Below, piece after piece: positions 1 to 54,094 of a stretch of 64,000 nt of DNA. The position numbers were made by a program, and so were the translations under genes. The stretch comes from Thermococcus barossii (GTDB lineage Archaea; Methanobacteriota_B; Thermococci; Thermococcales; Thermococcaceae), in contig NZ_CP015101.1 in NCBI RefSeq assembly GCF_002214465.1, positions 1,433,013-1,497,012 on the forward strand, read 5' to 3'. Within the stretch, counting starts at the first letter, position 1, and every line of letters starts with the position of its first letter. The notes under the pieces were generated by a model. It was given only the letters and a program-made list of their open reading frames with translations, did no database searches and was not told the DNA's origin.

Positions 1-273
1 GCGCAGGTCGGTGTAGACGAGGAGCTTTATGTCGAACTGGTCGTCGCGCTTCCTGCCGAGATCCACCAGCTCCCGGAAGGAGAGCTCCCTGTCACCGTCG
101 AAGACCCGTATCTTTCCTTTCTCCATCAGGTAGGCGGCCTCTATGAGAGACAGGAAGAGCTTCCCGTTCACGACCTCTCCAAAATAGCGCTTGTTGTAGA
201 ACTGGTTTATCGCCTTCTCGCGCTCGCTGAAGACCCTGTCGCCGCTGAGCTGAAAGACTATGGGTTCCTTCAA
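1..273 (-). CDS. endA: tRNA-splicing endonuclease EndA (partial, N-terminal part)
   Basis: Only the first ~91 codons are in the window; the gene runs off the left edge. The minus-strand reading gives KEPIVFQLSGDRVFSEREKA followed by YNKRYFGEVVNG and LFLSLIEAAYL, which I recognise as the N-terminal domain of archaeal tRNA-intron endonuclease. That enzyme cuts bulge-helix-bulge introns; the catalytic Tyr-His-Lys domain lies outside the window. I favour a TTG start at 273 overlapping the rimI stop (TTGA) after GGGAGGAA, but a GTG fifteen bases upstream is also in frame. It is cotranscribed with rimI. Confidence 0.85.
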   Translation of the reverse strand, partial: MKEPIVFQLSGDRVFSEREKAINQFYNKRYFGEVVNGKLFLSLIEAAYLMEKGKIRVFDGDRELSFRELVDLGRKRDDQFDIKLLVYTDLR

Positions 274-773
274 TTCCTCCCACCCCACTCCTCAGCGGGC
301 ATGAGCATGTAGTATGCATCCTCACCGTCGGCGTAGTAGCCGATTATGCGCTTTATCTTCCTGAAGCCAAAGCGTTCGTAGAGCTTTATGGCCCCTTCGT
401 TGCTCACACGAACCTCCAGGCCGATGTAGCGGGCGCCCTTCTTTATGAGCCTTTCGATTACCTCGCTCAGCAGGGCCGAACCTATGCCGCTTCCCCTGTA
501 GGCGGGATCAACGGCGATGCTCATTATGTGGCCTTCCAAGTCGGGCCTCAGGTAGGCCATGACGTAGCCGATTACCCTTCCCCGGTACTCGGCCACCAGG
601 AAAGTATCAGGGTTGTTCTCAAGGAACACCAGAAAAACGCCACGGGGGTACTGCTCCCTGAACGAGAGCCGCTCTATCCTGACGACATCGGGTATGTCGA
701 AGAGCTTCGCAGGTCTTATGACGACCATTGCCAGCGGAATCCTTCCGCCGGCTTCCCTCACGGACACGCTCAT
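270..773 (-). CDS. rimI: N-terminal acetyltransferase, RimI/Ard1 (GNAT) family
   Basis: A 167-residue GNAT protein with the acetyl-CoA binding segment VDPAYRGSGIGSALL (about residues 88-102) and the typical C-terminal YERFGF motif. Archaeal members acetylate protein N termini and are annotated as ribosomal-protein S18 alanine acetyltransferase homologues. The ATG at 773 lies about 25 bases from a TATA-like element (794-803), suggesting a leaderless mRNA; an internal Met at residue 16 is the alternative start. It is the first gene of a two-gene operon with endA. The family call is firm; the protein substrates are unknown. Confidence 0.9.
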   Translation of the reverse strand: MSVSVREAGGRIPLAMVVIRPAKLFDIPDVVRIERLSFREQYPRGVFLVFLENNPDTFLVAEYRGRVIGYVMAYLRPDLEGHIMSIAVDPAYRGSGIGSALLSEVIERLIKKGARYIGLEVRVSNEGAIKLYERFGFRKIKRIIGYYADGEDAYYMLMPAEEWGGRN

Positions 774-804: not shown

Positions 805-833
805 TTGAGGAGAACTCCGTCGGGGGTGGCCAC

Positions 834-896
834 CCCCCGTGATGAGCACTCTCGAACCTGACGGCGGGATGATGACCGGATTCCTGGCTGATTCTC
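834..896 (+). ncRNA. C/D box sRNA (2'-O-methylation guide)
   Basis: In the rimI-herA spacer all four boxes appear in order: C box GTGATGA (839-845), 12-nt guide (846-857), D' box CTGA (858-861), C' box ATGATGA (869-875), 12-nt guide (876-887), D box CTGA (888-891). Both guides are exactly 12 nt, as in archaeal C/D sRNAs, which assemble with L7Ae, Nop5 and fibrillarin. By the N-plus-five rule the D guide would methylate the fifth base of CCAGGAATCCGG, and the D' guide the fifth base of GTTCGAGAGTGC. I could not assign the target RNAs. The ends given are approximate; I see no terminal stem. Confidence 0.85.
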
Positions 897-913: not shown

Positions 914-927
914 TAAAGTTTAAAGCC
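914..927 (+). promoter_or_regulatory. herA operon promoter (TATA)
   Basis: The element aagtttaaagccc lies 35-45 bases before the herA ATG, immediately downstream of the sRNA. The RBS GGTGATGTT directly precedes the ATG at 960. Confidence 0.5.
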
Positions 928-959: not shown

Positions 960-2729
960 ATGCGCATAGCCGAAGACCTCAACGATCCGGTTGGAATCGT
1001 GACCGGTGAAGCCACTGTTAACTCATTCCAGTTCTACGCTCATCCCGATAGCGACCTCAAGTTTGGGGACTTCGTCGTTGCAAGACTGTGCAAGGAGGCA
1101 AAGGAAAGGGACTGCCGCTGGGGGGAGGACGTCGAGTGGATTATCGGCACCATCAGGGGAATAAAGAACATCAACTGGCTCCTCAGCGAGGGGAAGAGCA
1201 CCTTCGCCTCCCTCGACCTTGACCTCAGGGAGTACGGTGAGAGCATAGGGGAAAACGAGGCCCTCATAGTCACCGTCCACGTGCTGGGGAAGGTGGAGTT
1301 CAGGGGTGAGAGGGCCGAGATAGTTCCGAACCGCGTCCCAGTCCCCAACGGAAACAGGGTCTACATAGCCAGCTCCGACCTCCTCAGGGCCATTTACTAC
1401 GGTGGAGACGGCTTCATTGAGGTTGGAACCCTCCTCCTGAGGGAGGACGTGCCGATATACCTCAACGCCGACGAGCTGGTTTCGCGGCACTTCGCGGTTC
1501 TGGCGGTGACCGGAGCGGGCAAGAGCAACACCGTGTCGGTAATGCTCTGGAAGATGGTTGAGGAGCTGAGGGGTACCGTGATAGTTCTCGATCCCCACGG
1601 GGATTACATGCGCCTGAGCCTTCCGGGAACGGGGACGAGGTACGTCAACCTGATAGAGGCGAGGATACAGCCCGAAACGATGGACGGGGAGGAGCTGGCT
1701 GACCTCATGGAGATACAGAGCAACGCCACGATACAGCGCTCCTACCTCCTGCGCGCATGGGACACGGTTCTCCACGAGAACCCCAACCTGGGGGGAAGGG
1801 AGATAGTCAAGGCTGTCCTCGACCTCCTCCAGAACTGGGTGGCCAACGCTGGGGGAAGTTACTGGGACCCCCACGCGAACAAGTACCGCGACCTCGGCGA
1901 GATAAAGGCAACGGAGAGGGAGACCATAACGAGGCTCACCATGAAGATATCCCGCTTCCTCAGGAACTACGGCCACCTGCTCTCGGGGGAGGACATAGTG
2001 GCATCCATTAGGGCGGGGATGGTGAACGTCATAGACCTCGGCCCCCTCGACGAGGGACAGATGAAGCTCGTCGCGGCTAAGCTCCTCGAAAAGATGTTCG
2101 AGACGAGGATGGACTATGAGAAGGCCAGGAAGAGGCTCGAATACCTCAGGAGAAAGTACGGAACCAGAATCTCGGCGGTTTCGGAGGAGGTTAAGGAGCT
2201 TGAGGAGTTCATTCGCTCGGTCGAGACGAGCTACCCCGCGCTCTCGGAGCCCATACTCATAATAGTGGAGGAGGCCCACATCTTCGCACCCCACGGTGAG
2301 AAGGGTGGAACCGTTAGGATACTGGGAAGGATCGCGCGCGAGGGAAGGAAGTTCGGCGTCGGGATGGGGCTGGTGTCCCAGAGGCCCAGCAGGCTCAGCG
2401 AGGACGTGCTCAGCCAGACGAACACCAAGATCATCATGCGCATAGTCAACCCCAACGACCAGAACTACGTCATAAAGGCCAGCGAACAGCTCAGCGGCGA
2501 GCTCATGAGCGACATCGCGGGTCTCGGCAAGGGCGAGGCCGTGATAGTCGGCCAGGCCATAAGCCTACCGGCCCTCGTGAAGGTCTACAACTTCAAGGAG
2601 CTCGGCGGGGACTACGGCGGTGAGGACATAGGCGTCGTGAGGCGCTGGAGGGAAAGGGCGGAGCGAGAAAAGGCAGAGGAGAGGAAGGAGGAGCTCTACG
2701 AGGAGGAGGGCATAGAGCTGGACTTCTGA
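960..2729 (+). CDS. herA: DNA double-strand break repair helicase HerA
   Basis: A 589-residue hexameric FtsK/HerA-type ATPase that translocates DNA during end resection together with NurA. It has an N-terminal HAS-barrel region, Walker [10 protein letters not shown] near residues 183-191, the Walker-B-like segment [14 protein letters not shown] near 431-445, and a sensor/arginine-finger region [20 protein letters not shown]. It is the first gene of herA-mre11-rad50-nurA, with 9 bp to mre11. This is the standard archaeal homologous-recombination operon, and length and motifs are typical. Confidence 0.97.
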
Positions 2730-54033: not shown

Positions 54034-54094
54034 GCCGCCGATGATGAAAACTCCCTGCCCCGAACGGTGAGGAGAACCGGCTCCCTGAGGCGGT
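54034..54094 (+). ncRNA. C/D box sRNA with terminal stem
   Basis: Terminal stem GCCGCC (54034-54039) pairs with GGCGGT (54089-54094). Inside: C box ATGATGA (54041-54047), 12-nt guide (54048-54059), D'-like CCGA (54060-54063, one mismatch), C'-like GTGAGGA (54067-54073, one mismatch), 11-nt guide (54074-54084) and D box CTGA (54085-54088). The box spacing and closing stem are those of archaeal methylation guides. A TATA-like gatttta lies about 25 bases upstream. Predicted complements: GGCAGGGAGTTT (D') and GGAGCCGGTTC (D); targets not assigned. Confidence 0.8.

Follow-up and report, generated by a model that had tools for sequence, protein, structure and literature searches.

The class of RNA to which this locus belongs, with members of about 50–70 nt, is well described. 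L7Ae binds the kink-turns formed by the C/D and C'/D' boxes, while methylation by Nop5 and fibrillarin falls on the target ribose that lies five nucleotides upstream of box D or D' (PMC4644070, PMC7994747). A guide-target duplex of 8–10 bp is reported to favor methylation (Yang et al., 2016, as cited in PMC7089733), and the circular C/D sRNAs of T. kodakarensis mostly have terminal stems (PMC9014305). The element analyzed here, at 839–891 on the plus strand of a 64 kb stretch of Thermococcus barossii DNA (hereafter the window), is a real, well conserved but ordinary C/D box sRNA of the known family sR5 (Rfam RF01304). We read it as a double-guide archaeal sRNA that would serve Gm2371 and Gm2404 of 23S rRNA, probably from its own promoter and without a tie to the neighboring herA, and give this reading a probability of roughly 0.93. 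The observations behind it are the architecture, the family membership, the conservation, the complementarity to the targets and a partial co-variation of guide and target, from which transcription, RNP assembly and methylation would follow.

Architecture and family membership

Read directly in the sequence, all four boxes are exact matches to the consensus RTGATGA or CTGA and stand in the expected order, just as the preliminary description of this DNA had claimed, with the C box GTGATGA at 839–845, the D' box CTGA at 858–861, the C' box ATGATGA at 869–875 and the D box CTGA at 888–891; each is also placed by the alignment to the Rfam sR5 model. The two guides were said to be 12 nt long, and they are: the D' guide GCACTCTCGAAC (846–857), assigned from pairing, shuffled controls and the guide and target changes between genera, and the D guide CCGGATTCCTGG (876–887), assigned from pairing, shuffled controls and conservation among sR5 orthologues, fill the C–D' and C'–D spacers at a length that falls within the class range of about 10–13 nt. 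The D' and C' boxes are separated by a 7-nt spacer, CGGCGGG (862–868), the sequence and length of which vary among relatives, and the flanks of the copy in the window form no external terminal stem.

The four-box pattern occurs a single time in the window (both strands searched) and not at all in 100 dinucleotide shuffles of it, and a relaxed scan allowing up to two box mismatches returns no matches in 20 Markov-resampled windows. That the element is chance or decayed sequence without a product has a negligible probability given this zero expectation in shuffles and given that boxes and guides are conserved throughout the family even as the flanking sequence diverges.

When all Rfam families are scanned, sR5 matches at 836–892 (plus strand), where its 48.1 bits exceed the gathering score of 40 and the full length of the model is covered (positions 1–53 of 53); the second-best family, sR7, reaches 19.3 bits. 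Architecture and family membership together bear out the initial assignment as a C/D box sRNA, but the accompanying expectation that the spacer would be annotated as empty does not hold, since the Rfam scan reports RF01304 there above its gathering score. The match is unique in a scan of the T. barossii genome. Across the family, 53 of 61 genomes match the model at E ≤ 0.001 and 46 of the 61 lie above the cut-off, some of the weaker matches in the Pyrococcus-type genus (g2) coming from other C/D sRNAs to which the model also responds. Judged by guide sequence, 46 of 61 genomes hold true orthologues. All six sampled genera are represented, and in the genus of the window itself (g1, Thermococcus) the count is 22 of 28 genomes. 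A contig scan with a relaxed form of the sR5 pattern matched only records named as Thermococcus, Thermococcaceae or Thermococci.

Diverged copies in the six g1 genomes that are negative for sR5 were also considered, using a pattern made of the D guide and the D box. This pattern matches exactly in G041 and nearly elsewhere, and the three matches inspected (G041, G030 and G054) are without upstream boxes and read as coding or unrelated sequence, so they were rejected as diverged copies.

Apart from sR5, the window holds a second C/D box sRNA at 54037–54091 (plus strand), with the arrangement ATGATGA-aaactccctgcc-CCGA-acg-GTGAGGA-gaaccggctcc-CTGA and a terminal stem GCCGCC/GGCGG. It falls below all Rfam gathering scores, the best being snoPyro_CD, which reaches 36.2 bits where 45 are required. 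The D' guide of this sRNA, AACTCCCTGCC, is unchanged in five relatives and pairs at 11 of 11 positions with 23S 663–673, for which Gm667 (E. coli G583) is predicted; the D guide matches less well, at 923–933.

Predicted targets in 23S rRNA

A search of rRNA and tRNA for the complements of both guides had been proposed as a check in the preliminary description, and it comes out in favor of the guide reading, with corrections: close targets are found in 23S, but exact 12-nt complements of either guide are absent from the 16S and 23S of the genome. The best rRNA match of each guide lies in 23S, and the two sites are 33 nt apart. Positions 3–12 of the D' guide pair with TATCGAGGGTGC (23S 2367–2378) in a duplex of 10 bp, comprising 9 Watson-Crick pairs and 1 G-U, and positions 1–11 of the D guide pair with TCAGGAATCCGC (23S 2400–2411) in a duplex of 11 bp, comprising 10 Watson-Crick pairs and 1 G-U. 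The paired stretches are placed at 23S 2369–2378 and 2400–2410, respectively. By the N+5 rule the predicted modifications are Gm2371 for the D' guide and Gm2404 for the D guide, at residues that align to E. coli G2276 and A2309, respectively. The N+5 pair is Watson-Crick at both sites, and the fifth base singled out beforehand as the methylation site is still a G in the real targets. Candidate targets elsewhere were rejected: those in 16S are weaker than the 23S matches for both guides, and those in tRNA are G-U rich, with none better than 23S among the 30 tRNAs scanned of the 44 found.

It is important to consider how often such matches arise by chance. Shuffled guides reach an equally good match in 9.4% of cases for the D' guide and 3.8% for the D guide, which means that neither is significant alone. 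Both matches fall within 60 nt of each other in only 0.01% of shuffled guide pairs (2 of 20,000), corresponding to a joint chance of about 1e-4. It is thus the joint proximity of the two sites that carries their significance, each guide by itself being weak.

The target region of 23S folds into two neighboring hairpins, with the D' target forming the 3' strand of the first (the equivalent of E. coli H81) and the D target extending over the loop of the second and its 3' strand. With L7Ae, Nop5 and fibrillarin expected to come together at the C/D and C'/D' motifs, as is established for the class, pairing of the D' guide with the 3' strand of the H81-equivalent helix would lead to 2'-O-methylation of G2371, and pairing of the D guide within the next hairpin would lead to 2'-O-methylation of G2404. 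The role predicted for the element is most likely, then, to direct 2'-O-methylation of these two neighboring 23S guanosines. A literature search covering main texts returned no measured Nm at the residues G2371 and G2404; PMC7758197 gives GSE153501 as the deposit of a RiboMeth-seq dataset for P. furiosus.

The targets lie in adjacent hairpins, and on invading its hairpin the D' guide competes with the 5' strand there. This could also suit an RNA that is a folding chaperone first and a methylation guide second, its guides holding the two hairpins open during assembly, as already suggested for other double guides in archaea (PMC4644070). We consider this improbable, since closely spaced double targets are common among ordinary guides (PMC7994747) and natural losses of sR5 exist, though the present comparison does not separate the chaperone and guide roles.

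Guide and target changes across genera

To compare guides and targets, 23S sequences were taken from the same genomes as the sR5 orthologues, and the guides were cross-paired with the targets. The D guide and its 23S target are nearly invariant across genera, with the guide identical in the Pyrococcus-type genus g2. The hairpin strand that forms the D' target varies between genera, and the D' guide varies too. The 10 bp formed in g1 by the guide and target given above become, in genus g5 (G005 and G019), 11 bp between guide GTGCCCTTGATC and target TATCAGGGGCGC, with an A-U pair instead of G-C at N+5, and in genus g6 (G006, G011 and G028), 11 bp between guide GCGCTTCCGATC and target TATCGGGGGCGC, including 2 G-U pairs. 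In the cross-pairing table a D' guide usually, but not always, pairs best with its own target. G010 and G023 have a G-U pair at N+5, the Pyrococcus-type D' guides have one mismatch or bulged base against their 23S target, and in G004 (copy L078) the pairing is lost. The D' guide therefore broadly follows the changes in its target, a partial guide-target co-variation that is imperfect in Pyrococcus. Some of the D' guides in g2 (e.g., L037, L047 and L057) are 13 nt long and pair with 23S only via a bulged base.

This contrast between the two halves bears on whether both guides are active. If only the D guide (Gm2404) were functional, with the D' half kept mainly for RNP architecture, one would expect the near invariance of the D guide and could tolerate the mismatch or bulge in Pyrococcus and the unpaired guide of G004, and an equally good D' match, taken by itself, turns up with 9% of shuffled guides. 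The fact that three genera form 10–11 bp with their own target despite differing guide and target sequences makes a single active guide unlikely, and we favor the double-guide reading.

A further feature of the Thermococcus copies is a perfect 16-nt palindrome, GGGGGTGGCCACCCCC, read in the sequence at 822–837 (plus strand), where it abuts the C box. It is kept in most g1 orthologues while the adjoining leader bases diverge, it is absent from the herA upstream spacers of the two genomes that have no sRNA (G039 and G060), and its 12-nt core GGGTGGCCACCC has no other copy in the genome. The palindrome would probably fold into a hairpin in the 5' leader of the primary transcript; we treat it as a lead only, because the z-scores of the leader hairpin energies are modest and several orthologues are without the palindrome. 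A more elaborate reading combines both sets of observations: the D' guide would track compensatory changes in the variable H81-equivalent helix of 23S, forming a three-way co-varying set with both strands, and the Thermococcus-specific leader hairpin would be a signal by which the sRNA gene is regulated or its product processed. While possible, this combination remains tentative and is on the doubtful side.

Neighborhood, natural absences and described systems

The element sits between rimI (270–773, minus strand) and herA (960–2729, plus strand), and NCBIfam confirms rimI and the herA-mre11-rad50-nurA operon as its neighbors. A TATA-like box, CTTTTAAG, lies at 795–802 with no defined strand and is possibly bidirectional, rightward for the sRNA and leftward for rimI. 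It is kept in G013, G053 and G058, which have no rimI within 1.5 kb, as well as in G039 and G060, which have rimI without the sRNA, and it probably serves both directions rather than being specific to the sRNA. The predicted start of the sRNA is at about 823–826. As this TATA-like box and the C box are kept where the neighboring genes differ, sR5 probably has its own promoter.

The preliminary description had placed the sRNA upstream of the herA operon, which is correct as a position. In many relatives sR5 adjoins rimI but not herA, or neither of the two genes, and herA has a promoter-like sequence of its own, a TATA-like box GTTTAAAG at 918–925 (plus strand), downstream of the sRNA and kept in G039 and G060; the link to herA is therefore positional only, and herA is no functional partner. 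The same evidence applies to the proposal that the element is not a free sRNA but a cis-acting kink-turn in the herA 5' leader, serving as a regulatory site for L7Ae. The start of herA is 69 nt downstream on the same strand, and L7Ae-bound kink-turns in archaeal mRNA leaders are known or proposed (PMC4247193, PMC5539422). With the herA box lying downstream of the element, sR5 persisting where herA is not adjacent (including in g2) and both guides matching 23S, such a site is very improbable, and it was rejected on synteny and the separate TATA-like box.

In 2 of the 28 Thermococcus-group genomes, G039 and G060, the same rimI-herA spacer with both promoter boxes is found without sR5, and the 23S target is unchanged. 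These spacers (L177 and L178) amount to natural knock-outs in which sR5 was lost or never present. Since the two genomes lack sR5 and have the same 23S target, sR5 is dispensable over evolution, and these absences offer a ready comparison for the worth of the modifications.

Among described systems, the circular C/D sRNAs of T. kodakarensis (PMC9014305) are of the same class and from the same organism group, but the sR5 copy described here is without a terminal stem. The circRNA list of that study has no entry near 2,002,457, the position of the sR5 orthologue in G026 (taken as T. kodakarensis; 2,002,457–2,002,514, minus strand). The missing stem suggests that the sR5 RNA would not be circularized efficiently, in line with PMC9014305. 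With the archaeal double-guide C/D sRNAs surveyed by Dennis et al. (2015; PMC4644070), the element shares two guides, the N+5 rule and close targets in one rRNA; Thermococcales are not part of that survey, and neither helix 81 nor helix 82 appears in its main text. The sR5 case leaves the picture of archaeal rRNA modification unchanged; what it provides is two concrete Gm predictions in 23S and a guide that changes with its target across genera. Relative to the Rfam sR5 family itself, the D guide core GGATTCCT is held in common and the D target in 23S is the same in all genera compared, whereas the Thermococcus D' guide matches its own 23S instead of following the Rfam consensus, the D'–C' spacer is 7 nt here vs. 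3 nt in the Pyrococcus-type copies, and the palindromic leader is seen in genus g1 only.
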